Of a DNA stretch of 64,000 nt, positions 16,061-54,600 are shown piece by piece. A model generated the notes under the pieces. That model had not been told where the DNA came from. It saw nothing but the letters and a program-made list of their open reading frames with translations, and made no database searches. The first letter of the stretch is position 1; the number at the start of each line of letters is the position of its first letter. Both the position numbers and the translations under genes were made by a program. Origin of the DNA: Carposina sasakii (Eukaryota; Arthropoda; Insecta; Lepidoptera; Carposinidae); NCBI GenBank assembly GCA_014607495.2, contig CP053170.1, forward strand, positions 558,001-622,000, given 5' to 3'.

Positions 16061-16305
16061 GATCTATTATCAAAGCCCCTTAGTCTAGTGCGAACCACAA
16101 TGGAGTCACTTCTTTTTTGGGGGCGCACTAACTCTAAAAAGTGATACTTGTATTTAGCTAACTAATTATATTTTCTAAATTTCCTTCGGAGTTCCTGTGT
16201 ACCTTCATGCTTACACGGAAAGTCCAATACTTACATGTCAGTTGCGTAAGCCCAGCGTGTTTCTTCGATGACTGCGCGTCCAGCATTAGAAGCCGCAGAA
16301 GGGTA

Positions 16306-16311
16306 TCAGTT
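16306..16311 (+). promoter_or_regulatory. Candidate initiator (TCAGTT) of the pacifastin gene
   Basis: TCAGTT matches the arthropod initiator consensus and sits 79 bases upstream of the ATG at 16387. The sequence at +28 (tgacc) fits a downstream promoter element at four of five positions. No TATA box lies 30 bases upstream. This is an inference from short motifs. Confidence 0.3.
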
Positions 16312-16386
16312 CGATTCGGACTGCAGTGGCGGGCTGACCGTGGTCCGAGACGCCGTGTGTTGATGTTGTGACAAAAAGTTCGTGAA

Positions 16387-16447
16387 ATGAAGTGGCTAGT
16401 CGTTGTGAGCTGCGTGGTATGCCTGGTGCACCTTTCCGAAGCGGGGG
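16387..16447 (+). CDS. Gene 1 exon 1: signal peptide
   Basis: The first exon encodes MKWLVVVSCVVCLVHLSEAG: a Lys after Met, a hydrophobic core and an A-G cleavage region, a typical secretion signal. It ends in phase 1 at a gtatgt donor. The following intron is 15.4 kb, far longer than any other in the gene. Confidence 0.85.
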
Positions 16448-19400: not shown

Positions 19401-22400
19401 TTGTATGAAAATTTCTGAGATATTTAAAAATTCTCCATACTATCGGGAAAAATAAACATGTGATTTCGGGTCTGAAATTTTGTGGATAGATTCTCTATAG
19501 TGGGCTATTTACATAGCTTTTCGCTTAACATACCCTTTTTGTTACACCCTGTATATTGAAGGTAACGTTTACGTTTTACCTTTTACATAGAGGAATAAGT
19601 TTTAAAAGTCGTATTAGTACGTGTTATGCCGTTAAATTTTAATTTTAATCATATAAGTAAATAAATATGATGAATCAGTGCAGTTTCTTGTTGAATAAAG
19701 CAATATTTTACAGTCAAAAAATAAAAATGAACCAAGTAACTCCATCTATGATGATTTTTACTTCCCTGCTTTGGCTTACAAGGAAGAACACTCTTGTCTT
19801 TTATTCCTCTATGCCTTTTACGGCTATAAACTATTATTAATGTCACATAACTTAAGAAGGTCTAATAATAGACGAACCCTAACCAATGAGTACCTACCTC
19901 TTTCGTTATCCCATTTTAATTAAGTACTTTAAAAACCTCAAAACACACGTTAATAATATACCACATAGGTACCTACTTTATATTTATTCAAGTTTTAACG
20001 TTTTTCGAAATTTTATTTTATATGGATGGTGGGCAAAAAAATTGAGTCAATTAATCACATGCATGGATACATGATGCATGAAAACCAAGCATATGAAGAC
20101 ACATGCCTACGTCATTTATATCGTCAAGGTGTAACAAAGTCGAATATGTTTCTTTTGTATAATATAATAATAGGTAAAGTTATTGGACAAAGATGTCTAA
20201 TGACTATTTATTACATACACACATACATATAATCACGCCTTTATCCCTTACGGGGTAGGCAGAGCACCAAGGGCCGATATAACCACATGGTGCCACTTCT
20301 GACCAATTTTAAGGGTATAGTTGAGATGTACAAGTTCGGTTATTATTACATTACATACATATATAAATATACACACGGCTGTGTTCCCGGAATGGGGTAG
20401 CCAGAACTGCAGGATCGTAAAGGAGACCCCATAGCCACCTTTAGCATAGGACCAGCTAAATTTAAGTAAAACCTGTGAGGTCTGAAGTACAGGCCTATTT
20501 ATAACATCAAGAAAATGGCCTCGTGCCTACTGATACTATTAATGTATTTTTAGCAAATATTGCTCTCCAATTATAGAAATTACATTTATAGCGTGCAATA
20601 AATAAACTTGTAGGTATGATAAAGGGTAATGGCGGATGTGAGGGTGGCCCTTAGGTTGTGCCCTTTGCTGATAACTTTTGAAGTTAATCTTCTATACATA
20701 AAATTGTAACGGATCGATGTTTGTGCACGCTAACGTCTAAAACGGCTGAACCGATTTTCAGGAATAAAAAAATTTAATAAAATAAAATGGGGGGTGCAAG
20801 TCTAGAATACACGATGACTGATAAACCGATTTATCGAAATTTAGTCTGTCCAAATACGATAAATATAGCCGCCATGTTGAATTTTGTATAGTGACGTTAC
20901 GATATCGTATTATACGATATCCATGATGCGTGGTCATGTTAGGGGGGCTGATACATAGAATAATAAGTTCTCTTTACGTCGGACTCATTATTCTATAGCC
21001 AAATATTAGGCGTAGGTAGCTCTTTGTTTTGTATTTAGGAGAAGTAGGGCAACACTAAGAAACGGTTTTCCGAAATTCTTGCAGCAACGGAAAAAAACGG
21101 GAGCTTCATAGATACGGAAAAACTTGTCTTATGATGATGCATGGAAATTAATTAAACTTTACTAGGGTTGGGCGTTACAAATTAAATTATTATCGATAGC
21201 GTTATCGATATTTTTGTAAAAAATCGCATGAGTGTATTCGTTTTCCTCTTTTGAATAATAGGGTGAGGGTCTGGATAAGATTTGTTTGGCTTTTTGCGAT
21301 TTTGTTATCACAAGTGCAGATATCTTATACTAGAGTGCGTATACTTCATTTTTATGATGGCGCTAGTTACTATGTTAATAACTACATTATCTGTGTCATT
21401 GCATACAAAAATGTTAGTTCCGAAATCAGACATAAGGAGTTATACTCTGAAACGGAGTTTAGTGGATACCCGCCACTTTGTCTGAGTGTACTTCAGGAAA
21501 GATATGTTTCTGAGAAAAAAAGCCCTACATATAAGCTTTTTTAAATAAATGGACTGTCCAACACAAAAATAATGAACCAGCTAGTTCTCGAGATTAACGC
21601 ATTCAACCAAACAAAGAAACTCTACGAGTTTTACAATTCTCGTATATTAAAACGTAGCAAAGCGCATGTCAGTAGTAGGTATTATTATATGTACACATGC
21701 AATTTTTAATAATTCAAGCCTAGACCTTGACGCTTTTACCTTTTTTATTTTCATGCTTGACACGTCCAATAATAGAGACTCTTGCAATAGATCAATCAAC
21801 ATTATAACAATAATGTTATTGTCACCGTGGGAACCCTATTTTCCTTATTGCCAAGCTCATGCATATTACATAGATACATCTATTTATATCAAATAAGCAG
21901 GTTTTTCCTGCATATAGATGGTGTTGGTGCATGTCACAAAAACGTCGAGATTTTACGTAAACGTATAATTAATTCTAGCATAATATTTACTTTTATTGAA
22001 TGATTAAGGCGTAATCTCTTGAAGTGACCCTATCAATATCATATTCCTTTCCTTTTACCTTCCTTATCTTCTCCTTCCTCTTGTTTCGCGAACTGGCCGG
22101 CGGCGGCAGTGGCAGCGCAAGTGGCCGGGCGCACCAGGGGTCGACTAGCCCGGCCCGCGTCCCCCCAGCCAGCCGAATCTTTCCCTTCCCAGATGGGTCA
22201 GACTCTTTGACCCATGTGGCCCCCTTTAAGGGTCACGCAAGTTACCGGCGCGTTGTTGCGCGCCGAGAATATTGCCCGGGCACGGGAGTCGCACCAAGGC
22301 CCGCAACCCAGGGCGCATTTTTGTACCTAGGACATAGAGGAATAATTCCTCTATGTCTAGGACATAGAGGAATAATTCCTCTATGTCTAGGACGACCCAC

Positions 22401-24580
22401 GTCCTACATACATATACATACATACATAATAATCACGCCTCTTTCCCGAAGGGGTAGGCAGAGATCACGGATCTCCATTTGCTACGATCCTGACACGCCT
22501 CTTTCGCTTTATCTACTTTCATGATATTCTTCATGCACGCTCGTCGCTTTAGGGTACTCTTGACCTGACCTTTCTTTAGAATTTCACCAATTTGATGACC
22601 CACGTCCTACCAATATAAAATTTATACTTTTTGAGTATATATTTAACTTGATATTTTACATGTGAAAAGAAGATCCCTAATGATCCCGCAGTGTTGGCTG
22701 ACTCAATTCGGGAAGTCAGCCTTGTATGTGTATTACACATTATGTTTAAGTGAACATGGACATGTAATATGGATGTTAGACTTTCACCCAAAAACTAGTG
22801 AACAGGTTTTATTGAGACTTGGCAGTGATTTAGCTTATACATCAGACTAACACTGAACAAAATCGCGGGCGTCCAGTATGATATACCTACTTACGTCACA
22901 TGAATCTGAGTAGCACCACATAGCGCGCCATAATGATTATAACCTAACCATCTTAACCACAAGTTCTTACGAAACGACTGTAAAACATAGGTTCATTGCA
23001 TTTTTATCATTTTTATCGAGTTTCGCATGACCTCGACGAGCCAGAGGAAGTATTATCAAAGCAGATTATGCCGAGCCGTCGGAACTAATGAGAAAAAATA
23101 ATTATTAAATAACATAGAACTACCTAATTAATGGTACGCTAACGTGTGACCCGAGTGTCGCAAGCGCTCATATTTTAAATATCTATGTAGATAGCTTTGC
23201 CGCGTGGTGCCAGCAAAGTAGAGTTTTGTACCACCCAATGCCTGCCCGTGGGTATCGTACGACGCGATTAAGGGTTTCCGAGAGGTGGACAGTAGCGCCT
23301 CCCTTACTGAAAACATAGTCCAAAAACATAGGCAAAACCCCCCATGGCAGTAGCTTTGTGGCGTGCCTTGGGGGAGGCCTTCGTCCAACAGTGGACTGCA
23401 ATAGGCTGAAGACATGTAGAAAGCTGTAGGCTGTTTTTAAATTATATAGCTTATGCGTCATCATTTTTACTACTTTTCAGATTATAACATATGTAGATAG
23501 ACATGAATGTATTCCCGAAATGAGCTGGCCAAAACTGCAGGGTAAGGGAGATCCCGCAGCCGTGTTTAGTATACTTAGATGATGCTAACGATCAGTGACA
23601 AGTTGCTTGCTTATCGCCTGAGAGAACGCTCGAGTTATTTAATTGACTCTTACGACATGCACGGAAGTATATGCAGCTTATATGTATTTTAGTGAAGCCT
23701 CGCATCACATTATAATATTAATTATGTATCTACTTGATAAAATAATGGTTAAACTTTAGTATGTACCAGTTATGATAGTAGGTAATATATTTTCCTGTAA
23801 ATTTTAATAATATCGATATCATTTACTCGTACTGCACATCACTAAAATCTTAGTAGTTATTCGATTAATGGATTGTGCAGAAAAAAAATGAAAGTTTTAC
23901 TAAACTTGGACCATGAAAATAAAGTTACGCCTCATCTCGTTTATCAATAACAAGCGGCCGCTCACGACTTCGTCCGTGTGAAACCTGTGCTAAGCATGGA
24001 CAGAACCCTAGTTGTATAAACCTTCCTGTTGGATCACATCATCTATTAAAAAAAACCGCATCAAAATCCGTTGCGTACTTTTCAAGATCTAAGCATACAT
24101 AGGGACAGACAGCGGGAAGCGACTTTGTTTTATAAATTTGTAGTGATGATGAAGCTGTTGGAGTACAAAGTTTGAAGCAATCGTGTGCCTGTGCACGCGC
24201 AGACCGTATAAACTATCGCCCCTACGCCGATAGCATGCTATCAGTCATTCATTCATACATTATTATTATGTATGATGTCATCTGCTTTGTACACGGACTG
24301 GCTTGCCCTCTCCGTAACACGCAGATAAATAATATTCTAACAAGGTATTAATAAATTAATTAAGTACATGAAAGTAGATGAAGCGAAAGAGGTGTGTAAG
24401 GACCGTAGCAAGTGAAGATCCGTGATCTCTGCTTACCTCTTCGGAAAAGTGATTTTTATATACCTATGTATATATTAATCCGGAAGGACCGTGGTTGTAG
24501 TGACTGGATGGCAAAAACGGATTTTCGAGCCTTGTGGCGTGCTCTGGGGCACTATGTCCAGCAGTGGACTGCAATAGGCT

Positions 24581-30600: not shown

Positions 30601-33600
30601 TATAGATAGTTATCAAATCAAATCAAAATCAACAACAATCCCAACAGTTTATACTCGACTTATTTGTCCATACTAATAAAATTGCTACATTAGAAAAAAG
30701 TCGGGGTTCACATCCTTGCCTGAATACATATTCCCCATGAACATCTTGCGGTCTTCCAAGTCGAAAGTGAATCCGTTTCTTTTAGGCAAGCGCGCTCCAT
30801 CTTAGACTGCAACGGTGCTTACCATGAGGCGCGTTGTGGTCAAGCGTAAGCCCATTTAATATAAAAATAAAAATAAATAAACATGTATGTTAAAAACGGA
30901 TTTCATCAGACCCAAGTCAATAAATCGTCCATCTAATTCTTAGATAGCTATTAATAGGCCAGCAATAATTGGTAAGGTCATCGAGTCACAGGGCAATCGA
31001 CGTGTTCGATCGGAATTGTGTCGAGTCGATCGTGTGTCGCTGGCAGGCTGTGAACCCATCTGAACCCAGCCAAGGTTCCGCACTGCACTCGCTGATGCGG
31101 GGCTTCACTTGAATACATCAGCTGCATCATAGCAATAGAATCATGCGGCCTGTCAAGCCTATTGTTGGTTTTGCCATAAAGAAGAACTGACTTCAGCAGT
31201 TCTCGGGTTTCGTCTTTAGGCGACCATAACTGTTATTAAATTACTCCTTGGTGGCCATAAAGCCCCGATACGCCCCGATACGCCTACTTATGCTTGACAA
31301 ACCGTAACAAATCGCACCTTGGGGTGGGGACCGTTGCTAGACAAAAATTTTGCAAAGCTTTCTTTTTTTTGTTTAAATTCACCTATTTTTTTGTGTTGTG
31401 TTTTTGTGTTGTCTCATTTTAAGGTGCGAACATAGAAAGTGAAAAAAAATCTGCTGTTCCATACATTTCAGTGCAGTAATTATTCGAGATTGTATGGAAC
31501 AGCTGATTTTTTCACTATTTAGGAGTTGGTCCCATAGTGATAGTTGTTTCTTTTTACCTACCTAGTTTCGTGTCAAAAGATAATCACTGATTTTGAAAAG
31601 ACCTTATATAAGGACGTATATAGGAATGGTGAAAAGGGAAGCGCTACCGGTCCACCGGGCCACTCGATATTATTTGGCCCTTGTATATTCCAATCATTGT
31701 GTGTAAGTACTTCTATAGCGCGTTCTAGCTACTTAGTCCAAATGGAGCTTAATATGTGAACATTCTACTAATAGTCTTTCTAATAATGTCCTTTTCTTTT
31801 TTCCAGTGCTGGCTACAAAATCCAAGCCCGACTCTACTGTTAAACTAATAGGTGTGTACATGAAATTTTTAATTGTAACCAAAAATGGCTTAACCGATTT
31901 TAATTAAATTTGCTGTGTGTCTGGGAGGTTCAGGGTTGGTTTAAACGCTTTACTTTTTGTGATTCCAACAAGCTGTTGACGGACCACAAGTTTTAACTTT
32001 ACTTGTAGATATTACAAATGTGAAAGTTTGTGAAACTCTGTCTGTCTATCGCGCTGTCTGTAGTTTCGGAACTAACATTTTCGGTACCTATGCACTTACA
32101 AATAGTAACTAACGTAATCATCAAAAGGAACTGTTTGGTGAAACGCATTGTACATAATATGTATTATCATATCTGTGATAATATGCAGCGGTCGCAGTCT
32201 TGTATTTATATATTTTTTCTATACATTACAGAGGATTCCGACGATGGAGTGTTAAAGAAGGGTCGAGACTGCGAACCAGGCACAAAATGGATGAACCGCT
32301 GCAACAGCTGCTTTTGCACGGAGCAAGGACTGGTTTCCTGCACGAAGAACGACTGCCCCGGCATGGAATCTGGTAAGGATCTTTTCATAGATAGACTGGC
32401 AGTCTTAATGTAATATTAAGCATACCTATCCTCATACTTCACATTCTGTTTTTCTACTCGTATTAGTTTTAATGTTTATAGTCGCTAGTTAGGTCCTCCC
32501 GGGATTTTCTATACTTTGTTTTTCATTTTTCTGGTCGCCTCTGTGATCCTGGCTCACAGGAGTTGCAGAGGTACGAATGAGTGGTGGGCCAATCCTAGTA
32601 AGACTGGCAGGCTGATTTTGTAACTTGCAAACGGCTCGAGCAGATCCCATGCGTATGCGTAGACGGCAAGCGGTGTGTCCTGTCTCATATAGTAGACGTC
32701 CACGCATACTACGCATCCGATCTGTTCGAGCCTTAAGCGTCCACTGGCACTGCCACTGGGGCAATCCCGGCCAGGGCTATTACGTTGCTTGCAAAAGCAA
32801 TGCGATCGCGAAAATTGTGAGTGTGTGATGCATGCGTTGGGCGCCCTCCGGCCAATGGACCGCAGACTTAAAGAGGACGGCTGGTAGTGACTGGATGGCA
32901 AAAACGGGAGATCGAGTCGTGTGGCGTACACTGGGGGAGGCCTACGTCCAGCAGTGGACTGCAATAGGCTGACGATGACAACGACAACGACGATGCATAT
33001 GTGTCGTCCTCCCACGCCTTCAATTCACCCCGTTGCAAGTTGCAAGTCACGTAAATTCCCTGCCGATCCTTAGCAAAGATTTATGAAAGTTAACTTTTTA
33101 TGACACACATGATGATGATGACCTCCGACCGTATTTCGGCCACCAATCTCTACGGAGATTGGCCAGGTACGCAGGAGATATTATAGTGCACAAGTGTGTG
33201 CACAAACACAGATGCACTCTCTATTCCGTTACTCTCATAGTCCGATGGGACGGAAGCCGACACGACCGGAGAGAGATCAGGCGCACATATAAGGTCTAAA
33301 TACATTGTTGTTAATTCTTGATTGTGTGTATTTTACAGTAGAAGAAGTGCTGTGCGCTGAAGATTCCGAATGGAAGAAAGACTGCAACAGCTGCTGGTGC
33401 CTCGGCGGGATAGCTCAATGTACCAAGATGGCTTGTGGAGGTCAGTAGATTTTCCGTTGACTAAAAACAAGAAAATTACCTATGTTGTTTTCCGCGACAA
33501 CGCAATGTTTGGAGGTATTTATGCATTTCTCCACTTATGATTTATTTTATTTATTTGAATAAGGCTTGCCAACAACATAAATATCATTATTAAAAACATT

Positions 33601-36600
33601 ATTTGAGAAAATATTCTGATACATATATCTCTTACAGGCTAGCACAACATTACTAAATTAATTCAATAATACAATAAATAATTTCAATGCAAATAAAGAA
33701 AACATGCTTAATAAATCAAATTATACTTAAATTAAAATACATACATCAAATGATTCTTAAAATACCTTATGGCGGAGTTCAGATCACCCCTTACTACGTG
33801 AGGCTTTCTGTAGCTAACATAAAGTTGGTGTGTAATTTGAACTCCTCCGCCCTACCTTGGTAACTTTGAGAATAACTTGGCGTTACTTTATTTTTGTTAG
33901 CCTTACAAAGACCACAAGTAACTCTTAGTTGCCCAATTGTCAGAAAATGAGTTTAAAAATCTAAAAGGAATTGGCGACAGACATATACAAAATAATTATA
34001 CGTAACAATATAAAACCTGTTTTTCTAATTGCAGTTATAGAGTACGTAGACATCGACGCGTACCTAGCTAATACATCTAAAACCACAACAGAAAAAATCC
34101 CTGCCGCGAAGCCAGAAGTAAAAACGGAAAATTCACTTAGTAATACAAAAACTAAGGCCGTAACTGCAGGTATGTTATATCTGTAGTATACTTTTGATAC
34201 TGGTAGAGTTCCACATAGAGTTAAACCAAACTTTAGAATTTTCTTGCAATGCACAGTTAAACCGAAAATACAATTTATAGAAACTTGCAGGGCTAACCCA
34301 CTACTAGCAGAAAATGCGTAAATATAGATTAAAGTTGTACCAAGAATTAGCACACACGACTTCTCTTTCTGTTTATGTAAACAAAACATAAGGAGCGGCG
34401 TGTATGCTAATTCGTGGTTTAAATAAAGCCAGATTTAGTAATTTGCTGCAAGTAGGTCCTAAATTATTCAGTTCTAAAAACTCAATCTCAATCTAAAAAT
34501 TTTCACAAATGACCTTGGAAAACCTTCCTTTCCTTAACAATCTATTTTGAAAATAATATAGGGACTTGAAATGTTAAAAAATAATAAAGTAAGTAGATAA
34601 AATTTTGACTATTTTAGTAACATTATTTTAAGTTGCTTTTTCTTTGTGATGTTACTACTCGTATATGGTCATAGTTAATTGCTACACGAGTATAATAGAT
34701 TCTATTCTTTTCGTGTTCGTTTTTTTGTTAGGTATATTGGTTAGGTATTTTATTTTATACTTAAGTATATAAAGAAGTTTCCGTATGGTGCTAGGATGCA
34801 ACATTTTCAGTTTTCCATACTTTTATTCCAGCAATAGAATACATTAACGAAGAGAAAGCTGGATTACCTAAAACTTCCACTGAAATTCCCCAAACCACTG
34901 AACTGTTCAGTGACAGATCTTCAACAAGTAAGTTATCGTTATTATAGGGTTGTGGTGTCAAAGTTTTGGGCCTTAACTAGTTTCTTTTTTCTTCTTTAAC
35001 TTTTCCTTCACTTTTCTCTACTGCTGCTTGGTTTCCATCGCTTATTCGGTAAAGGACTATTGGTGATGGCACTCTTATCTTGTACCTTTAAGATTGACAC
35101 AAATGTACCTTTTTATGATGTTGGTAACTTCAATACCATTAGGTTTGGTCATTGCAATAAAACATTAATTTCTGTTTTAACTTTACCTTGGAAACCACCC
35201 TCACTTGAGGACGTTGACTTTATGTCCTTGGCACAAGAATGTTTCCGGGTAAGTCCTTGTTGAGGAAGTAATCTGGAAATTACTGCTGTTTATGCTATGA
35301 GGTAGCCATTCCTTAAAGAGAAGAGCAAAATTCTACTCTATGTCTAATTGCATGTTTCGCTAGGTATTGAGTCAGGTTTTCGTTCAGATGCTATTAGATA
35401 CTTATTTTTGGAACTCTTTCAATTTCCGGCTTATTATAGATCATCTTTCATTCAGTAGTTGTAGTTATAGTTTAGGTTTCTTCTAGTTCTTGAGGTACAA
35501 AGCACTCACAGACGAATAGTTACTTATTAGTTATAATAAAAAAAATATTAAACTGAATTTTGGGAGAAAATATACTAACATAAAAACTCACGACGATTTA
35601 TGAAGGACATAGTATGTTCATCCTAATTCTTCGTAAAATGAGATGGCTTGTCATACTTTGCCAGGCGATAAGCCCGTTATTATTTTAGGTCACGTGCCAG
35701 GTGGCCCTCCACGGGATCTACCAGATGTCCCCCCAGCGACCAACGTGCCAGATGTTCTTCCTCCAAGCTACGAACAAGATGTTGCTCCGGGCTACGACTT
35801 AGATCTGCCACTTCCTAGCAACGTATTAGATCCTGCTCTTCTTAGCAATGAAACAGATATTACCCCGAGCAACTATTTAGACGTTCCTCCAGCTACTGAA
35901 ACGGATATTACTCCAGATATGGAGGTGGATGTTGCACCTGGGATTGAGATAGATGTCGCTCCTGATAAAGATCTAGACCTTGTTCCTGGAATCGAGCCAG
36001 ATGTTCCTCCCGCAACTGAAACAGATATTGCTCCAGGTGTGGAGGTGGACGTTGCACCAGGAATTGAGATAGCTGTCGCTCCAGACAAAGATCTAGATCT
36101 TGCTCCTGGCATCGAGCCAGATGTTGCTCCAGCAACTGAAACAGACATTTCTCCGGGTGTGGAGGTGGATGTTGCGCCAGGAATTGAGATAGATGTCACT
36201 CCAGATAAAGATCTAGACCTTGCTTTTGGCGTAGATCCAGATGTTGCTCCAGCCACTGAAACAAATATTGCTCCAGGTATGGAGGTAGATGTTGCACTTG
36301 GAATTGACACAGATGTCGCTCCAGATAAAAATCTAGACCTTGCTCCAGGCATCGAGCCAGATGTTGCTCCAGCTATAGAAACAAATATTGCTCCGGATGT
36401 GGACGTGGATGTTGCACCAGGAGTTGATTTAGATATCGCTCCAGATAAAGATGCAAATCTTGCTCCTGGCGTAGATCCCGATGTTGCTCCAGCAACTGAA
36501 ACAGATCTTGCTCCGGGTGTAGAAGTCGATATCGCTCCTGATCTTGCTTCTAGCGTAGAGCCAGATATAGGTATAGGTACAAATATGAACGTTGTTCCAG

Positions 36601-39600
36601 GGGTGGAAGTGGATGTTGCACCAGAATCTGAAATTAATATCGCTCCAGACAAAGATACAGATAATACTCCAGCCATAGAGTACGACGTCGTTCCAGGCAC
36701 AGTGTTGGATGTTTCTCCTGGATTAAAGCCAGATATTGCTCTAGTTTACAATGAAAACCACTCTACTACAACAGAAAACCCTTCTTTTACTTCGACAAAA
36801 AATCCAGACGAAACCTCAGCAATCAAGCCAATGGTACCTCCAACCAAAATACCAGGTGTTATTTCAGAAATTGAACCGTCCATTACATCGTCAGATGATC
36901 AAGTTACACCAGTTAATGCTTTATCGAATCCAGTCGATATTTTAGAAACTAAGCCAGCCATACCAGAGGTAATTTCAGACACCAAGCCTTTCATAACTCC
37001 GGACAATAATGATGTTATTTCAACTATCGAACCTGACATCATTGCAGGCATCAAGCCAACCGATGTTCCAAACAAAAACCCTATTGTGCCGGATATAGCA
37101 CCACTTAAAGAGCCAGATTTGCCTCCTCTTAGTGTCGAAACAGATCTTCCCCTTCCAGTCATGGAACCAGATATCGACCCAGATATCGCTTTAAACAACG
37201 GGTTAGATAAACCTGTAGAAAGTAAGCCAGATCAACCTCTTCCTGACAATGAAGCAGATCTTCCTGTACCTGAAAATGAGCCAGATGTAGCCCCCGACAT
37301 GGATCCAGACGTCGCTCTTGGTAATAAACCAGATATAGCTCCAGGAACTGAAATGGGTATCGGACCGAGTAAAAATCCTGATGTCACTCCTGGCATAGAA
37401 TCAGATATTGCTCCAGAGGATTCAAATATTCTATCAGGTATAACTTCAGATGACTCCTCGATCAACACGCAAGGTAGCCAAATAGGGGACAAGCTTGATG
37501 TTATTTCGGGGGATAAATTGGACATTATTTTGGATAACAGACCATCAATTACTCAGCCGAATGAAGGAGTTGTTGTGTCGAATGACAACATAGTTATTTC
37601 TCCAGATAAAATCGACAAACTGAACGAAAATAAGCTTGATGTCCAAAATAAGTCAGTCATCCCTGTAAATAATAAGTCTAACGTCACATCAAGCGATACT
37701 ATATCAGACCCCATTTCTGGAAATAGACCAACTGGGGATATTCTGGATGATAGACCAATAGTTGCTCCAATTGACAAACCAGATGTTGCTTTAGATAAAG
37801 TATTTATGGTCGCTTCGACTAACGACTCAAGTACTCTGGGTGATATGAACAACATAGACTCCATTGTTGTCATGAAACCGCATGTCAACCAAAACAATGA
37901 TAATACGAACGTTAGTCAAAATAGTATCCCAGTCATTGTGCAAGATAATGTGCAAGATAATTTTTCCACTATAACAGGCAACATATCAGACATCGTTTCA
38001 GACGATATCCCGGGTATTTTACTTGCAAATGATAAACCAACAGTTAGTTTGAATGATAAGCAAGATATTGTTCCAGATGAAGTTACTAGTATTGCGCCAA
38101 GCAATATCACTATTTTAACTCCAAGCGTTATACCGTTAAAAAAACCTGGAAATACATTAACAGTCGGTACGAGTTACAAGCCAAATAATATTACTCCAGA
38201 TGTTATAGAAAATAAGCCAATTGTAGCTTCTGTCATCAAAACAGAGGTTATCCTAGGTGACAAACCTTTTGTCGTTCCAGTCATCAGTCAGTCAGCAGCG
38301 GCAGCCGGTTCAGACTACGTATTTAATGCTACGGAAAATAAGGAACCATCTATTTCTATTGGAATAGTGTCAAACGTTGCTCAAATCTTCGATAATGCCC
38401 CAGCTAAACATCCAGATATTCCACCTGCCGGCGCCGAGCCCGATGTTGCACCTGATGTTGACTCAGACGCTGCTCCTGACGTCGACGCTATTTTTGCATT
38501 TGAAAATAAGCCCGCTGTACCCCTTTCTGTGATTAAACCAGATGCTCCTCTTGCGGATATAGCTCCGGGTTACGAATCGGATGTTCCGCCAGGAAAAGAA
38601 TCGGATCTTTCACCGGCAAGTGCCGACCTAGATATCGCACCAAACAACAAATCAGATCAAGCTATTCCTGGCATTAAACCAGATCTTCTTATTGCAGATA
38701 CACTTCTAGGAAATGAATCCGACTTTACTCCAGGCAAAGAGCCGGATATTCCTCCCGCGAGCGTTAAGCCAGACGTTGCACCGGACGTCAACATGGAATT
38801 TTCTCCAGCCATAGAGTTAGACAACCAAGCAGGCATTGGAGGAGGTAAAAAGCCAGACGTTCCAAACAATAACCCAGCAATTAATTTGGGTGATAATCTG
38901 AACAACATGTCGTCATCCGGCACCGAACTAGAGGTCATGCCGGGTGAGAATACACTGGTCAACGCTCTGGGTAATAATTCAGATGTCATTCCTGGAAACA
39001 ATCAAGTGAGACCAGGAATTGATACAGGCAACCCACAGAAAGTTGTACTTGATCAAGGACCATCAGTGGTAACCGGTAGTAAGCCAGAGGCAACCCCGAA
39101 TGATAATGTTAATAAACCATCCATCGCTTCCTACGACAAGCCAGAGTTCGTTTTAAATAATAACCTAACGGTCACTTCTAGTATCAAGCCATTAATAGAA
39201 CCCAGTAATAACCCAGTAATAGCTACACCAAATAACAAGACAGATGTGTCTTTAAATAATAAGCCAGGAGGCTCACCAAGCAACAAGCCAGCTGTCACTC
39301 CATGGTATAAACCAACAGCTTCACCGATTAATGAAGTAGTAACAGCACCGAGTAAGCTGACTAATAAGCCAGGAGTCTCACCAAGCAACAACCCAGCAGT
39401 CACTCCGTGGTACAAACCAACTGCTTCACCGATTAATCAGCCTACAGCATCATCGAGTAAACCGACTAAAAGGCCAGGAGCATCTCCAAGTAACAAGCCA
39501 GCAGTCACTCCATTATACAAACCAACCGGTTCACCCCCTAACAAACCAGCAGCAACACCGAGTAAGCCAACTTATAAGCCAGGAGCGTCTCCAAGTAACA

Positions 39601-42600
39601 AGCCAGCTGTTACTCCATGGTACAAACCAACAGCTTCATCGACTAACAAACCAGTAGCAACACCGACTAAGACGACTAATAAGCCAGTGGTTTCTCAGAG
39701 TAAACCCACTAATAAGCCTGGAGCCTCTCCCAATAATAGGCCAACTGCCACTCCCTGGTACAAACCAGCAGCATCATCGAGCAGGCCGACTAATAAGCCA
39801 GGAGCCTCTCCAAGTAACAAGCCTGCAGTCTTACCCAACATAAGGCCAGGTCCAAATGACAAGCCAGGATCTACTCCAGACCACATACCACCATTCGCCT
39901 TAGACAATAAGCCGACCATACAAACAGAAAATGGTCAAAGTCATCACGCTTACAACTGCCACCAAGGATACCACTACCATCATCCCCAAGGCCCGCATTT
40001 TCACTATGATCACCATCATCCTTATGACCACCACCACCACCATTACGATCACCACAATTATGATCACCACCATCATCCGTATGACCATCACCATTCTCCC
40101 TATCATCACCAACATCATCCTTATGATCACCACCATTCCTATGATCAACATCATTCCTATGATCAACATCACGGCCATAATTACGGAACTCATGATCATG
40201 ACCAAGGCTATCACCACCAACAAAACGACTATAATCATAATAAGTACGATCACCATAAGTATGACTACCAACAAAGAAACCAAGAGACGGTATATAAAGA
40301 TGATGATTCTGATGCCCCATCAGATACTCGTATACAGCCTAATGATTATACGGATTATCAATTCATCTTTCCCTTTCCTCATCCTCGAAAATCAGTATAG
40401 TAACATTTGCTTCATCTTTACGCAACATTGCTTCTTGCCATAAATTATTCCCTATATCATTGAAGTGGCAACAGGTTAAAATGAAGTCGTTAAAGTAGTA
40501 AATCACAGTATGTAATACTCATACAAATTATAAATAGACTATGTAACATAATACTCATGTTAGTTTGTAAGTCTTGCATTGTTAATTTAAATGTGTCTGT
40601 ATAAAATGATGATAAAATGTTACTTTCTCAGTTTGTCATTTGTGTTTTGTTCAACGTTTGTTATAGGGTAATAAAATTTAACTTTTCAATTGTGTAATTG
40701 TGTTTTTGTATTAAGTTCACTTTCTTTTTAGTATACTATTATAAGCACATATTATTAAGTATATTAAAACTTAATTAGCCCTCAAAATTTTCTTAAATTG
40801 CGCAATAGAGTTATGTAGGTATTTGATGGGGGAAAATAGAATTATTGCAATTTAATAATAATAAATTGCAATGTTGAAGAGTTTTTGTGGGCCAACTTAT
40901 TAATATCTAGATGTGCTAGTAACTTGTAAATAGCTTCAACTTTCTTAAGCACTTCCAAATCTGCATACGTCGCAAAGGGTTAGGGTAACAGGTAAAATGG
41001 AATAAATTATGGTAAGTTTAAAACTTTGTATTCATGAAATTGGGTTTCGAAGGTGTGGCTTGCCGGTTATTGGGTGTGTAAAATAATATTCAGATGGTGA
41101 GAGATTTTCATTTTCATTGGTATCACAAATTATCGCATAGAATAGCAGGTATTTTCTCTTCTTTGAGTGAGCGTTTTCCCGTTTCCGAATCTTTGTTATA
41201 TAGACTTGTTGAATTAAAATGTTAAATACTTTTTCTTAAATCTTTACTTCTTGTATTTCTTAAATCTGGGTAGATCCAAAAGACCGTGGCTGTATTCCCT
41301 TTTTATCATGATTATTTCTGTAACCATTCATGTTTGTACCAATTTGATGATACTATACTATACGCCAACCCTCCTGGCACGCAGTCATAGAATATGACAG
41401 CGCGTGCCAGGAGCATTGGCGTATAGTATAGGATATTTTTTTTGGCTTAGTCATACGGTTATATCGCTGCTTATTTAGGTCCGTGACTGTTTTCACAAAA
41501 AGGATCTTTTCATATAACTTTAAAACCGAAAGTGAAACACCCCTTATGTATTTAAAATATTGAGAAACTACAGCTTTACAATTTAATTCACCATTGTAGA
41601 TTAGCTAGCATGGCTTCAGTAAAGATTATCACCATGCTTATTATTTCCAAATTAGATTATAGCAGCTTCGCATTGTTATCTTACTTTACTCATGTAAGGT
41701 CCGTAATTTCTTCGATATTGAAAGTACAGTCGATTGTAATGATACTATCTGAAATTTCAATCGAAATTATCTTCTTCAGCTGTCTTGCTAAGTTTATTAT
41801 TTTAATGGTGTCTGGCTGGACTTTCGCATTAGGTGGCGGCAGCTTGTGCTCGCTGCGGTCGCAGTTAGCTTAAATAACTTTAAAAATTAATTGTAGTTTA
41901 TTTGTTTCAGCTACAGCTCTGAAGGAACAGTCATCACAACAACCACTGTCCAAAGGCGGAAACACAGAAGACAGAATCGTTTTTGTAAGTTAAAACCTTT
42001 ATATTACTTTATATTTATTATATTATTATTATATTACTCTGTTTATTTTGATGCGTTTCTGTTGATGTTATTTGTTTCTCGTTTTTTATTAGTAACAGTA
42101 AGGAACATGCAAAAATACAATTTTAGGCTCTATCAAGGATCAAGTTCTATTTAATGAAATACGTTGGAATTAGGACGATTTTTTGCATGGTCCTTTCTTA
42201 ATTGCCAATCTTCTACTTCAGCAATAGTCTACGAACTAACATCGTATTACGAAATACACAGTTGCCAATAAAGTTAACTTGTAAAACTGCAAGCTTAGTA
42301 ACATTTTGCAAAGATATACCTACGGCAAACGCGATTTAGAGAAAAATAACTTTTATTTGGCAATAGATATCTTTTTTATTGCTTGATTAAATGTAAAACG
42401 TATATGGAAAGAAATAAGTTGTATTGTAAATTATCTCAAACTAAATTTATTTGTTTATTTCTGAGATATTGTTTTTTTTCCGAAGCCTAGTAGGTATTGG
42501 TTATTCGTACAATTAATGTTTTGGACACAACTAATATTTTACATATTTAGATGCAACAGTGATAATTTTTTTATTGTGATTTACAAGCACTGGGCATTGG

Positions 42601-45600
42601 TAGCACTACTCGTATTATAAGGTAAGTAATTAAAGCACTTTATTTCAATCGCTTATCATTAGATTATTTATTATAATTGTCACAAGCATCGCACATGGAA
42701 TGGCACCATTAAATTACTAAATCTTCAGTAATCTAACTAAATTAGTTTATTTTCACATAAATTTTAGGTGCAATATAAAGGTACCTACAATATTAAATAA
42801 TTAACTTAATTTAATCCTTAATTTGACTATCATAATATAGGTATATAGTCTATTGCACAAACCTATTGATGAAGCTAATCAAAATATATTCCAGGATAAC
42901 CAAGAAACCTTTACTGACATAACAGAAAACTCAGAATTAGAAGATGAAATCGATGATTCTATAGAGGAAAACGTCGTAGAACAAGAACACAATAACATTG
43001 AAGAAGCAAATACAACAGAAGCCGTTATTGAGACAAGAATGCATAAAGTGATAAAAAGAGCAGCATCATGCAAACCAAATCAAGACTTTTTGTCTGACTG
43101 TAATGTTTGCAAGTGCTCTAATGATGGTCATAGTTACTCGTGCACACAAAACGAGTGCATGGAGGGTGAGAATACTAATAAAGAAGTAGAAGTGTTTATG
43201 GAAAATGAGGTGAGCTTATTTACATATACAAATATCTGTGTTCCTTAAACGGTAGCTAGAACTGCAGGTGCCTTTAGTAAAATATAAGGTTTTACATTGT
43301 TTTATTCTAATGCGGAATCACAAAAACCGGTCGGGTTTATCTGGATACCGCTTACATTTTAGGAGTTGTACAATTATGGTCTTATATGTGTGGTTATGTC
43401 CATCATCTGTCATACACTTACAATAGGACTTTATAAGCGAGGCATTATAAGTGACTTTATGGCATATAGGAGGTATATAACATACCGGTATGTTTGTTCT
43501 CTGTGACAAATCAGTGACAAATTGCCAGCTTATTATCTGATAGACCGTCTCTAAGGAGTTGAGAGATGAGTGCTCAAATAATGCTCTTTGTTGAACTACC
43601 TGATGAATAGTATTACATTCTTATAGTTATTTTCATTTAATATAACTTAACTTTTACCTTAGGTATTGGCATGATGTTGTACTAAGGGTTTGTATGTTTT
43701 ATTTAAGGGCGTAGATCACATCGAAAGGCATTCAGTATGCAAGCCTAGATCTACCTTCGTGATTGGCTGCAACACGTGTTACTGTAACTACGACGGAACG
43801 GATTATGATTGCACCAATAAGCCGTGCCCTTTGCCCAAAGATGTTGAAGTCTTCCATGAGTTGAGGGTAATGTAGCATCAAATAACATGTTGTTTTAGCC
43901 AAAGCCTACCTATAAATGAACTTGATGCTCTTAGGCAACAAAATTGTATCGATTTTACACTAACATAAACTTGTTAATTTTATGTTTCAGGAAATGAAGT
44001 CTATTATCCCTTACACCAACAAGAATGTCACGAAGACCGAATCCCACACCAAATTATAGAACATCCTTAGTTATTTATACTTTAATAATAAAATTACTGA
44101 AAAAAATTGTTTGCCCTGTTTGCCTTTTACTTACTTTAGTTTAAATCATTCATGTTTTTCTTTTTTTTCCTAGAGGACAGATTTTTCAAATGTGGTCAGA
44201 TAGCCTATATGAAGAATGATGCTGTGTGTCTCTAAAACTTGATTAATCAAGATAAAGACAGCATCAACTTTATCCTTCAGATAGGTTATCTGACTATTGG
44301 ATGAATCGGCCCTTACTTATTCCCCTTCCGTTATTACTCGTAATAACATACTTACTTGACGAAATAAGTACCAACGTGTATTCGTGAAGTAAATTCTTGT
44401 TTAAATTCTATCGACAAATATTTTTTGCTTTAGAATGAAAAGTCTGCTGTAAAGAACGCGACGAAAAAAGTAGTTTGTGTTGCCAATCGCATGTTCATTA
44501 AGGACTGCAACACTTGCTGGTGCAACGAAGATGGAACGCGTTTCTATTGCACTAGAAGAGTCTGCATCCCTGAGTTATCTGAAACGGGGATAGATGAAGA
44601 GGTTGAGGAACATTTGTAGTTATTGCATGTCTTAACAGAAAGGGACGGTGGAATAGATTACTAGATGTAAGTTCGGGTTGTAGATACAACTTAGCAATGA
44701 TAAGAAGGTTTTATAGGTATTAGGGAATGAGAGCTATTTAACAAACTTAAAATAATTCTCCGGAAATTGGGTGTAAATATTAGGTGCTAAAATTTAATAT
44801 CTTTTTCTATTATACGGGGAAGCTTGGAATGGCATTGGTTCCATTTCCTATTTTGTTTACCTATGAGCTATGAAATAGGAGAATATATGAAAGTTAATAA
44901 TTGTAGATGCTTGATAATGATGAACAAGCTTTATGTAAATAGAGGAAAAGGCTTATAAATGAAAAAATATAATTTGCTAGTGAAGTTCACATTGCAATGC
45001 TAACGCTGGCCCTTACCAACACTCTATGGATATAATATTTGGTAAGATAAAGATATCGATCATGGTAATTTATTTAAATATTGGTGCTGGGTTGAAATAG
45101 ATATTGTCAATGTTGTAAAAAAGCTGTAGCACCTAACAATGGAAATGTAGTCGAAGTTATTCCTATAGTTTCAGCATGATCTTCGTATATTAAAGAAGGA
45201 GTGTCGCCCAGACGAAGTGTTTGAGATGGATTGTAATACTTGTCGATGCAACTCGGATGGAAAGTCGTTCTCCTGCACACGAAGAGCTTGTATGGAGGAA
45301 GAAGAGGGCAAGGTGTGGTGTGTTTTTAAGTCGTTTCGTCTTCTGGTGTTGGTTAATTCTTGTTTCATTTCCTTCTATCTAGGTTTCAGTGTGTTTAGTT
45401 CTGTGTCTTTAATATTTATATCGGCATCCGCCCTTAATTCTTTTATATTTTCTCTGTTCTGATCTAGACCATTTGATTTGTTTTAGTAAGCAAGATGTGT
45501 AGAGGTTTCTACTCGAATTCTAATATCATCAACCCACACTTTATATTTCCTCACTTTTTCACTCTATCACTTCATTAGAATTTAAAACAAAGTAGGTAAC

Positions 45601-48600: not shown

Positions 48601-51600
48601 GCAACGACTGCACCTGCTCTGCCGACGGCAAGAGCACCTTCTGCACGCTGCGTCTCTGCGACGTGGACGTCACCGGCGGCCTCTAGGCCATTAGCTAGCA
48701 GGTTACATGCAGTACCTGCCATGGCATTAGAGCCATCAGCATCATTGACGCCATATACTATTGGATTTTCTATTCATCTTTTGATGATCAGTTCAAAATT
48801 GATGTGGTGTTTTGCTCTTATGGCGATTTTGCCAACTGTACTTTAGGTTAATAATTCTTGAGTATTTTTTTACTGTGTTTTTAATTAAGTAATAAGCAAT
48901 GATTGTGGCATCAACTGTGTATTTTTATGGTCAATAAGCAATAACTAAAGGCATTTTGAAACTTCAACAATAGTTTTACATTCAAATCCAATAGATTACT
49001 CACTCGATTTTTTTTAACCTATTTCTGCTCGAGTCAGAATTCTTATTATAGTACCTATAATATTTTATGAAAATAATAATTTATGGTTTTATTTTTGACG
49101 ATCCCACATAGACTTTGATAGTGTCTCTTAGGAAATAATAATTGCATTGACTTGTACGTACCTCAATGGTATTTTTTCGATTCTATAGAAACAGGATAGC
49201 GCACATCTACTTTTTATTTATATTTCCATTATAAATAATAGTGCTACAATACCTACTTTCCTATTTCCACCTAGCTTGTACTCTGTAGAATCTGAACAAG
49301 ATTATCCTCAACACTTTGCTATTACTATTTAGTATAATTTTTTGTCTCTAGCTTTTAAGGTGTGTGTACTTTGTAAGAATGCTGTGACTGCAACAATATG
49401 ATGTATGACTGAATTATTTTTAAAATCATCTTTTAACGCGTCATTTTATCATCATTTTCGTCGTCATCAAATGTATTATTGTGATCATTTCACTTTTCAT
49501 CTAATTGTAGATCATTCATTCATCTTTTAGTGTAAGTTTTTGTGAAAGTGGTATGGTTTGCATGTGACTTTGAATTTTGTATTTTGTAAGTACATTTGGT
49601 ACTTTTACGTTTTTTGTATTAGAAGCATTAGAAGTAAGTGAACTTAAATTGAGAAATAAATAATTACACATGAATAAATGACTTTGAATTCCTCTGAAAT
49701 TTGTTTGATTTTGACCTTATCCTGAACATTTCCCGGAAAAAGACAGTCGACTAAGGAACGCGGAGGCGCGTCCACTGGCAGGCAATGAACCAGCAACTTG
49801 TCACTTTTACATCTGACCCTGCTATACTAACGTATTGTTCTTTACATATCTATACATATAAACTAAAAGCCTCTAATATCTTATAAGTATCCATTTGTGA
49901 AATAAAAAACAAAATAAGTAATAAAAATCGATATGTAGTTAGTTTATTTGTACATGTAGAGGTATATTCGATAATATCCATATATGAATCTAAATTAAAT
50001 TGAGCAATAAAGCCATTGATTAAGGTTCCAATTGATTTTTCATTTAATCGACTATTTTATAGCACATTTACGGCCATGACCTTGTTTGTAAACTAATGTT
50101 TGTTTTCTATTTGGAATAATGAGCGTGTATAGTTTTGTATTTCTATTATGTTTTTCGTTATGTATTTTATATGCCCATTCATTGTTATGTAAGTATTTGT
50201 GAATTATATTTGCTTTACTCGCTGTACTGTAGTAAGAAATCCTTTGCTATTAAACATTAAAGTTTGCGAGAATGTCAAGATGTTTGGATATTTGTTATTC
50301 TTTCACATAAAAACCACCGCCGAACGGATTTTGATAAAACTTATTATACTTAACATACTTTTTAGCTAATATAATACATTTTTATCAGTAGTAGAGGAAT
50401 TAAGGTCACCTGCATAAAGATTAGTTGGCTTTATATAATATAATTGCCAATTGGCCATGCTAATGGATCAGATAATCTCAGGCAATAAGCTAACAAAGTT
50501 GTCAATGATCATTTACATCTGTCCCCATAATACTAAACGTGGCTACGGGATCTCATTTACGACCTTGCAGTTCTGGCTACCCCCATTTCGGAAACACAGC
50601 CGTCTGTATGTATAAGTATATAAAATTGCATCTTTGTGTCCATCAGTGGCATCCAAGAGATGTGTGCCAACATCGGTGGTGAGGAAGAAATGCATGACCT
50701 GTATTTGTGGAATGGACGGAGTGTACTACTGCAAAGACAATTGCCTTAAAAAAAACGGTACAAGTAAGTATTGTATACAGGATGTGTGTGACAGCCAGGA
50801 AAATATTGAGATACTGAACAAGTACCATTGTTTTTTAATTTTTGATTTGATTATACGCAATGTTTGCTTTCTGCGCCAGTTGTATCGGGCGATCCTGTAA
50901 TTAATTAAATGGGCTTTTCGGTTATTGTGTGATACATTGCTGTTTTTTGGATCACTTGTGACTCTCCTTTGGGGTTGATCAGTTTTTTGAACTTTTTTGA
51001 GAGCAACTTTTTTTTTTAAATCATCCATAAGTTAAAGTTTTGTTTGTAAGTCATTATTTAAGGCTTACTTAAACGAACCACACTATTTTTCCTATAAAAA
51101 TGAGAAAAAAGTCGGAAAATTTCTGAATTTTCCTGCGAAAATTTTCACTGATTTTCATCTCAGAATCATGGTCTGAAGTCACCATATAAATATTTGCCTG
51201 GCTGTCACGAACACCCTGTATACATAGTAGGTGTTTCTAGGAAACAAACTTTTCAATGAAGGGTCACCATTTGAGACATTTTGACACTGTGAGACTTGTT
51301 GATAAAAAAAAATGCTACACTTAACTTGTTACACTTTTACCTACATAATGTGATTGTTACAGTTCGATAATTACCTACTTTTTAGGGGCTCTTTGAGTAT
51401 CGGCATAAAACAAACATTTTCTTCTATATGAGGTTTAGCAGAGGTGTCGGTACTGCCCCTGCTCGCCTACAATTCAACACCCACAGGGATATTACCTAAA
51501 TTACAGTAGAAAAGCCGAAGCAATGCGATAGCGAAAATTGAGCGCGTTTGAGCGTTCACCCCGCGCTCACACACTAAATAAAAAGCATTGCTATCGCTCT

Positions 51601-54600
51601 GCTTCTACAATTTACGTACCAGCCTAGCCTGAAGCTATTGAAGAGTTTATTTCATCAAAAGGTCCTAATAACTACATTGGAATCTACAGTTAACTTAACT
51701 ACAGTCCACACATCAATTATTATTATTTATATATTATACCTAATACCATCAAGCAATGTTTACAAATTGTAATTGAATCCCTGACCTGGCCAAGGTCGCG
51801 GGCGTCGGTTGGATGCAGGCTGGCTTCCGACCGGTCGGAGTGGAGGTTGTTGGGGGAGGCCTATGTCCAACTGTGGACTTCCGAGGGCTGTAAATGATGA
51901 TGATCATGAAATTGAACCCCTATTTTAAATTTTTCATTTTCTCTAGAATCCATACTTTTTTCAGTAAAAGAAGCCTATTCGGGTGGTGGAAAAGAGTGCG
52001 ATCCATTACGTCTTTATCGATCCGATCGTCTATTCTGCAACTGCGATGCTACAGGGCAGTGGCTTTCTTCGATGTGTAGGCAAAAGTTCAACTCCATTGC
52101 GGCATTCAAAGCACCTGTAAAAAAGGGGCCTTACAGAGAAAGCATTCCGTGTACACCAAAGTCATTGTATCTCATCGATTGCAACGTCTGTGAGTGCGGC
52201 CTCAACGGCATCATGGACCACTCCAGCTGCACCGACCGACAATGCGCCAAAGCTAGCAAGGCTGACAAATGTCTATATGGGGACGTTGTCAAAACTGACA
52301 CGGAGTTATGCTCGTGCAGCGAGGTTAACTACTACGTCGATCGTCTCTGCATCAAAATAAATTCGCTGTCCGTTCAGAATATAGCAAGATCGGCTCTTGC
52401 CAGGATAATTGAGCAACATGGATTTATAAAATCAGCACCCAATAAAACAGAAACGTGTATAAAGCATAGAGTATACCAAGTTGATTGCAACCAATGCCAC
52501 TGCACCGATCACAATACGCTGCGATGTTCCCGACATGAGTGCCTTCCGGAAACCAGGCGTTTTATTAAAAATAAGGACTTTGATTCATTGCCATCACTCC
52601 AAAACCGCTTTGAGGATTGTCACCCAGGACATAAATATAAGTTTAAGTGCAACACTTGCATTTGTTCTTCAAAGAGGATCCCTTCTTGCACTTCGATGGT
52701 CTGTCTTGAGGATCTTGTTGATAGTAAGTAAAGTTATGGTATAGAAGCTGTAATTACCACGATCTGCTGTTTTATTTACTTAGGATTATTATTATTATAA
52801 GTAGGTGCATGTATAAGAATGGAAAAGCGGGACATATCTGTCTACCATTTTGCTCTCAACCATTTGATTGGAATAACTGTAATGTTACTAATAAACATAA
52901 TGTAAAATTATTAATAAAGAAATGGAAAAAATTCCTCACCCGGGTGGGAATCGAACCCACGACCTCTGCATTCCGTGCCAGCGCTCTTACCACTGAGCCA
53001 CCGGGTCAATCACTCGGATGACGAATTTCACCATCTCTTTTTTGAAATTACATTATTGGAAACGTTATTTTTTCATCCATAATGTACTTGAAAATGCAAT
53101 ACTCGTTTTTTTACAAACTTTACTGACGCTTTGAGCTGAAGTCGAACCTCATTTTAGGCCCTATTAAATAATATTTCCTAAAAATTATATTTAAAGACTT
53201 ATCTACATATTACATAGGGCGAATTAGTCAGGACCGCGGGTATCTGTTAGGTACAGACCGCTTCCAACAGGTCTCAGTGGAGGTTGTCAGGGTTTCAGCA
53301 GGGAACTTAATGCCTAAAATGATGATTATTAATAAAGACAAGTAGACTGTGAAAGAAAGTGTACAACGGAAGAGTGGATGGAAGGGCTGGAAAGGGAAGA
53401 CCTCGCCGGACCTTCACCGATCGAATTGGTGAAATTCTAGAGAAAGGTCAGGTCAAGAGTACCCTATAGCGACGCACGTGCATGAAGAATATCATGAAAG
53501 TAGATGAAGCGAAAGAGGTGTGTCAGGATCATACCAAATGGAGATCCGTGATAATAATAATAATAATCTTTATTTAACCTTAACTTTTACTACTATTACA
53601 TAATTATTATATTTATGCAAATAGTTTTATAATTACACTCACTGACAACTAAACTAGGCTGAGCCTGTATCTTAGATGCTAGTTACTTCCATACGTTTAA
53701 ATTAAAAGAATGTTACCGCGCACGGTTTGACTACATAAATTGTGGAGTTAGGCAACTTTTTGTGGTAGTTAACCAACCTTAGGTACTTATACAAATTAAT
53801 TATTTATACCAATACTGGTTATACTTAAATACTAATATAGATCAATAACATAAAGAAGGAAATAGTTTGTCTGTCCGTCCGTCTGTCACGCAGGGCTATT
53901 TAACTTTTTGTGATAGTTCCATGAAGTGATCTCTGCCTACCCCTCCGGGAAAGAGGCGTGATTTTTATGTATGTATGCATGTATGTACAATGATATTAGT
54001 AATATCTATAGGTTCCAGACAGTTATGCAACTAGTAGGAAAAATAAACGCAAGTACTTTGCCATCTCAAGTGATGTGGAAATTTTAACGCTGCTAAGTGA
54101 TATAATAGTTCCAGTAGGTATAGATAGCTATTTGCATATTACCATCTGAGAGGTCTGATACGAGTAGATATAGAATACAAGACAGCACTTGATCTGACCA
54201 GTCTCTCGTTTCCTCTCGTCTAGGTAAAGAGAACACTACACAGGTGTTCTCAGAATGAGTCTGTATTTGCTCTCTCCATTAGAAATAACACAGGTACCGG
54301 TGCTTTCAACAGAGGTAGCAAGTCATCAGTTATTCCAATATTGCTGTGTGGGAACAAAGGACAAATTAAGAAATATTTCCTCATTTTTTTTACAGCCAAG
54401 GCGGCATTGAGAGATTTACCTGAACTCATTGAAGGAGAGTCTTGCGTAGCTGGACAAAAGTACAAAAGGGACTGCAATATTTGCGAATGTAGATCAACCT
54501 ACGAGCTTGTATGCAGCCAAGATGTTTGCCCGTCCAAAGATAATGAAGATCCTTTCGAAGAAACCGAGAGGCTGGCATCACGGACCACAAACTGTACACC

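Follow-up and report, generated by a model that had tools for sequence, protein, structure and literature searches.

Analysis of a 64,000-nucleotide stretch of the Carposina sasakii genome (GenBank assembly GCA_014607495.2, contig CP053170.1, positions 558,001 to 622,000 of the forward strand; hereafter “the window”, whose numbering is used throughout) identified a candidate gene in which two pacifastin-type inhibitor domains are followed, in frame, by a giant terminal exon. The model of this tailed gene comprises seven exons separated by six phase-1 introns, all in frame, and predicts a product of 1,771 residues, 1,578 of which are supplied by the giant exon (Table 1). The same length had been proposed in a preliminary description of this DNA, and it was obtained again from the seven-exon splice that includes the leader exon 16387–16447. 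The explanation that we tentatively prefer is that the gene encodes a secreted pacifastin-type inhibitor, kept whole, whose two heads are carried on a long polymer tail within protected extracellular material.

The giant exon (35665–40400) is the distal part of an open frame of 1,587 codons at 35637–40400 (+), closed by a TAG stop at 40398–40400. When the exon was shuffled with a first-order Markov model (500 runs), the longest frame had a mean of 112 and a maximum of 234 codons, and when the whole window was shuffled in this way (30 runs), a mean of 130 and a maximum of 175 codons; the observed length is thus far beyond chance. This bears out the earlier claim of an open frame of about 4.7 kb with a stop and an AATAAA motif at 40670. 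The two tandem arrays within the exon were then used to examine silent change, five in-frame copies of the 120-base unit and four of the 105-base unit being compared. Differences were commonest at the third codon position (63, 34 and 105 at positions one to three in the first array; 34, 31 and 59 in the second). The Jukes-Cantor ratio of nonsynonymous to synonymous change (dN/dS) was 0.37 and 0.39 for the first array, read in two registers, and 0.42 for the second, and the raw ratios (pN/pS) were 0.43 and 0.48, compared to neutral means of 0.89 and 0.94. Values as low as those observed arose in 2 of 1000 (first array) and 7 of 1000 (second array) neutral simulations, which presuppose a star history of the copies. 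The bias of the repeat copies towards silent change makes it probable that the frame is translated and constrained. The sole Pfam match of the exon at E≤0.1 was to the PT (disordered) repeat model, and it fell below the cut-off of that model.

Both inhibitor domains preceding the tail were recognized by Pfam as Pacifastin_I (PF05375), with E=2e-10 and 40.6 bits for domain 1 and E=3.7e-10 and 39.8 bits for domain 2 (cut-off 27.9). Sequence comparison with the PDB also matched domain 1 to pacifastins of solved structure. An AlphaFold model of this domain, built from 19 paralogous rows, had a predicted local distance difference test score (pLDDT) of 76.8, and when it was used as a Foldseek query the first 22 of the best 50 of 157 matches (E≤10) were pacifastin-type inhibitors, the best at E 7.6e-3 and none at E≤0.001. 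For the family comparison 19 of the 20 domains found in the window were aligned, one being left out. A profile of the 19 gave 18 matches, 16 of them to pacifastin-type entries, and six Cys residues were invariant in all 19, a partly circular result, as the search pattern demanded Cys. The P1 residue is Lys in both head domains, as had been claimed earlier for two inhibitor domains at the head of the protein, and this suggests that their targets would be trypsin-like proteases.

Nearly 90% of insect multi-domain pacifastin precursors are reported to bear dibasic cleavage sites, a feature that is common but not defining (PMC2689174). In the predicted product dibasic pairs occur at residues 44, 95 (inside domain 2), 1019, 1255, 1462 and 1768; a KK pair is found once ahead of domain 1 and once within domain 2. 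The segment between the two domains and that from domain 2 to residue 1019 contain neither dibasic nor RxxR sites, and the inhibitor heads may therefore stay attached to the tail.

The tail is rich in Pro and Asp and contains one Cys and 18 N-x-S/T sites. It had been described as acidic, then basic, then rich in His and Tyr, and this order was found: residues 194–1390 carry a net charge of -153 over 1,197 residues, residues 1391–1595 one of +26 over 205, and the His/Tyr-rich end follows. The acidity is, however, uneven, being strongest at residues 194–560 (-74 over 367) and weak at 791–1090 (-18 over 300) and 1291–1390 (-2 over 100). Prolines recur at fixed distances over residues 191–1771, with 101 pairs at lag 8 (32.4 in block shuffles, z=14) and 85 pairs at lag 4 (31.2, z=11.9); none of 1000 shuffles reached either count. 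By part, lag 8 is pronounced in the acidic array (z=12.7) and present in residues 536–1090 (z=6.0), and lag 4 is pronounced in the basic part (z=11.1), while the spacing is weak in residues 1091–1390 (best lag 9, z=3.6; lag 8, z=2.1). Because 8- and 4-residue proline spacing is common to the acidic and basic parts, these look like one short unit that expanded and then diverged in charge.

The putative splice that joins head and tail would use the donor CAA|gtaagt at 34927 and the acceptor ttgccag|GCG at 35665, both in phase 1. The fit of acceptor to donor agrees with the preliminary description, but the giant exon is numbered 7 here rather than 6. In the gene model, all six donors score between 7.7 and 10.2 bits. 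Secretion is predicted from exon 1, which encodes a good hydrophobic leader, joined by phase to exon 2 across a 15.4 kb intron, and is the sole phase-1 leader candidate between 15 and 31.8 kb at the thresholds used. In the interval 34927–35665 the scan found no ATG resembling a leader start whose donor exceeded the thresholds. The proposed transcription start at 16308 depends on a match to TCAGTT, which we take to be an insect initiator motif; another copy lies at 16240.

Table 1. Features of the tailed gene and its proposed alternative exon in the window.
Feature	Position	Strand	Basis and remarks
Possible transcription start and 5′ untranslated region	16308..16386	+	Motif scan; initiator-like TCAGTT, A+1 at 16308, 79 bases upstream of ATG
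Exon 1, leader MKWLVVVSCVVCLVHLSEA	16387..16447	+	Hydrophobicity and splice scores; donor GGG|gtatgt, phase 1
Exon 2, short linker	31807..31851	+	Phase 1-1; acceptor 9.2 bits, donor 7.7 bits
Exon 3, pacifastin domain 1	32232..32372	+	Pfam, PDB sequence matches, AlphaFold model; loop CTKNDC, P1 Lys
Exon 4, pacifastin domain 2	33339..33440	+	Pfam; loop CTKMAC, P1 Lys
Exon 5, Thr/Lys-rich linker	34035..34169	+	In frame, phase 1-1; begins VIEY; donor 10.2 bits
Exon 6, Thr-rich linker	34832..34927	+	In frame, phase 1-1; begins AIEY; donor 9.0 bits
Exon 7, giant terminal exon	35665..40400	+	Frame length, repeats, silent-change bias, splice phase; 1,578 residues and stop
Acidic array	35880..36520	+	Tandem Repeats Finder, period tests; 120-base unit (40 residues, five octapeptides), x-x-D-[VIL]-A-P-x-x, ~5.3 copies in 35879-36520
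Basic part, Lys/Pro/Ser/Thr repeats	39255..39869	+	Tandem Repeats Finder; 105-base unit, ~4.1 copies in 39257-39687
His/Tyr-rich end	39918..40250	+	111 residues (1612-1722), 37.8% His, 14.4% Tyr
AATAAA polyadenylation signal	40670..40675	+	Motif scan; 270 bases past stop
Possible phase 1-to-0 exon, skips giant exon	41911..41984	+	Splice-score scans; may be chance

In the explanation preferred here, two predicted trypsin-directed heads would be carried via Thr-rich linkers on the low-complexity, proline-spaced tail. The long acidic and short basic parts could allow the chains to associate by charge, and the His/Tyr tip could be bound into extracellular material by quinone or laccase cross-linking, or by metal binding; the heads would then shield that material from trypsin-like proteases. 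Assembly, cross-linking, protection and tissue are what we infer; a long, proline-spaced, charge-patterned chain with such a tip would be suited to an extracellular material. The preliminary description had proposed a secreted polymer of this general kind: its exon, which looks coding and constrained, and the in-frame join to a two-inhibitor head are supported by the sequence, whereas the charge blocks look like one expanded unit that drifted, and the giant exon could also be an alternative ending (see below). A bolder proposal, which we regard as doubtful, is that of a self-protected biomaterial in which a single chain has inhibitor heads, a disordered polymer with patterned charge and a cross-linking tip of His and Tyr, so that a silk, cuticle, egg or spermatophore material would become resistant to digestion during its assembly. 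If true, protease inhibition and a structural polymer would be united in a single secreted chain. In Bombyx cocoons numerous protease inhibitors occur as separate proteins (PMC4393245); making the inhibitor part of the polymer would solve the problem differently and would provide a template for protein materials that resist digestion. The gene would further illustrate how a small inhibitor gene can acquire a large new part through the expansion of a short repeat in its last exon.

On the reading favoured here, the tailed gene would represent a novel kind of pacifastin, in which an inhibitor that stays uncleaved is joined to an extracellular polymer capable of cross-linking. According to a family survey of 2009, all precursors then known consist of a signal peptide and one or more inhibitor domains, but stretches devoid of inhibitor domains were noted in one Nasonia and one Trichoplax gene (PMC2689174). 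No pacifastin with a comparable tail was found in the accessible portions of the open-licence literature. The closest known systems are the insect precursors of the PF05375 family, e.g. Bombyx BmSPI71 (2 domains), BmSPI72 (4) and BmSPI73 (13/11) (PMC3278429), which share with the tailed gene six-Cys domains and, in some insects, clustered paralogues, and whose leader has a putative counterpart in exon 1. The tailed gene differs in its 1,578-residue repetitive tail and in having no dibasic sites between domains and tail. BmSPI73 is itself present in Bombyx cocoons (PMC4393245), and a pacifastin domain-containing inhibitor (PDCPI) of the caddisfly Limnephilus appears in a table of silk proteins; its composition (23.4% Thr, 13.2% Cys, 9.8% Lys) differs from that of the Pro- and Asp-rich, one-Cys tail (PMC11092239). 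Moth scales contain cuticular proteins, BmorCPR152 among them, with His-rich runs like those of the tip, and the cross-linking by laccase2 of a Bombyx scale protein with 45% His, which yields films, offers a model for the tip (PMC8062583). In contrast to these proteins, Pfam detected no chitin-binding domain in the giant exon at E≤0.1, while the available sections of PMC8062583 mention no inhibitor domain in them.

Several observations weigh against the preferred explanation. The acceptor of the giant exon is modest (2.6 bits; the 24 scored acceptors range from -2.4 to 9.2), and exon 1 is tied to the remainder over 15.4 kb by phase and motif alone. An alternative start is offered at 32183, where an ATG reading continues directly into domain 1; another ATG reading, at 34665, is hydrophobic, and its phase-1 donor, at 34731, is weak (3.8 bits). 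An exon scan of intron 1 returned seven candidate rows, four of which share the open phase 1-1 candidate 22193–22453, with strong splice scores (8.0 and 7.5 bits); it was left out of the gene model, without proof, because it covers a 30-base tandem repeat. The open frame 22015–22521 had no Pfam match. Searches for relatives were likewise negative: the giant exon had none at E≤0.001 among the 7,988 candidates listed and scored from a protein collection, head residues 1–240, compared with 570 length-matched candidates, gave no tailed relative at E≤0.01, and none of 16 pattern matches to the exon in prokaryote genome contigs, an unlikely place, was confirmed. These nulls are weak, moth coverage being apparently thin, since the clearly pacifastin protein of 51967–52722 recovered just three relatives, including a named protein from a butterfly (in viral contigs it gave two pattern matches, neither confirmed). 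Repeats can, moreover, expand without any material role, and His runs fit metal storage too.

As the tailed gene heads an apparent tandem pacifastin array, the head exons may end either in the giant exon or skip it, via 41911–41984, into the next pacifastin exons to give a many-headed form, which is possible, if on the unlikely side. The exon 41911–41984 is open, phase 1 in and phase 0 out, and would connect the head, in phase 1, with the exons at 42895 and 43708, in phase 0; splice variants have been reported for insect pacifastin genes (PMC2689174), and the two domain numbers given for BmSPI73 point the same way. Its donor at 41984 is, however, weak (4.5 bits) and the acceptor at 42895 poor (-0.1), the next gene could instead begin with a phase-0 ATG exon at 41610 (donor 8.1 bits), and three later sets of inhibitor exons have candidate leaders of their own (50119, 57629 and 61690). 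The giant exon might also belong to another transcript with its own start, beginning at an in-frame ATG at 35643, ahead of the acceptor, or using the 34665 reading as a leader exon placed past the inhibitor domains. The former yields no hydrophobic leader (MACHTLPGDKP) and the donor of the latter falls below all six donors of the gene model, and a separate gene appears unlikely.

A tissue-specific form of the preferred explanation would make the product a male-made polymer of the spermatophore or seminal plug, with heads that restrain seminal trypsins. Three pacifastin-precursor transcripts were reported to be up in one strain in female reproductive tissue, including the bursa copulatrix, of Ostrinia (PMC4007636), and the two-domain BmSPI71 has been reported as male-exclusive in metamorphosis, which is compatible with a spermatophore role; BmSPI71 is, however, tied to the tailed gene by domain number alone, and this form appears rather unlikely. 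The tail could finally be low-complexity sequence, either non-functional or drifting, that expanded where an ordinary inhibitor with two domains ends. The failure of the protein searches to find a tailed relative would be in line with this, but 1,578 codons without a stop and a silent-change bias in both arrays argue against it, and it appears improbable.

A pattern search of both strands of the window detected 20 pacifastin domains, all on the + strand: the two of the tailed gene and 18 at 43–63 kb (43069–63108) with varied P1 residues (Q, N, R, S, L, K, D, T). We read the latter region as comprising some four genes, of which the last may extend past the window end, and 16–63 kb as a tandem pacifastin gene array with the tailed gene at its head. 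A lower-threshold scan of 31–63.9 kb gave 34 leader-like ATGs. From these, the candidates at 50119, 57629 and 61690 were picked; their phase-1 donors score 6.5, 9.0 and 12.9 bits, and inhibitor exons in the matching phase lie downstream of each. Of the three, 50119 alone has outside support. The pacifastin protein LOC124540254 of Vanessa cardui (P0002, 318 aa) matches exon 51965–52723, with 101 of 246 aligned positions identical, and starts with a leader; its first domain, as judged by eye, is separate, resembling the layout at 50119. The array reading follows from this match and layout; what the Vanessa protein matches is a later array gene and not the tailed gene. Clustered pacifastin genes are known in other insects (PMC2689174). 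A single long transcript containing the inhibitor exons of the window was considered but was weakened by the Vanessa protein and by the candidate leaders of three later genes. Start candidates for the second gene are the exons at 41610 and 41911–41984 described above. Within this gene, 43991–44092 is a short possible terminal exon (EMKSIIPYTNKNVTKTESHTKL, then stop) with AATAAA at 44087, possibly a short alternative ending. At 50661–50744 there is a divergent inhibitor domain, possibly inactive, with a loop one residue short (CKDNC).

Other elements were observed in the window. The proposed first intron contains a broken mariner-like transposase remnant at 17315–18236 (HTH_48 and DDE_3 matches, two open pieces) and, at 22327–22393, 2.2 copies of the 30-base tandem unit (100% match), with an inverted repeat inside it by eye. 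Similar leader-like readings occur at 1554 (+), 1271 (-) and 61836 (+), beginning MLGARVWFLMAIVV in two cases and MLGAWIWFFVATIV in one; they are perhaps an interspersed repeat mimicking a signal peptide, and a 26-residue piece of the 61836 reading had no Pfam match. Three tRNA matches exceeded the Rfam gathering score, at 3777–3849 (-), 9171–9243 (+) and 52936–53007 (-), and may represent genes or tRNA-derived repeats.

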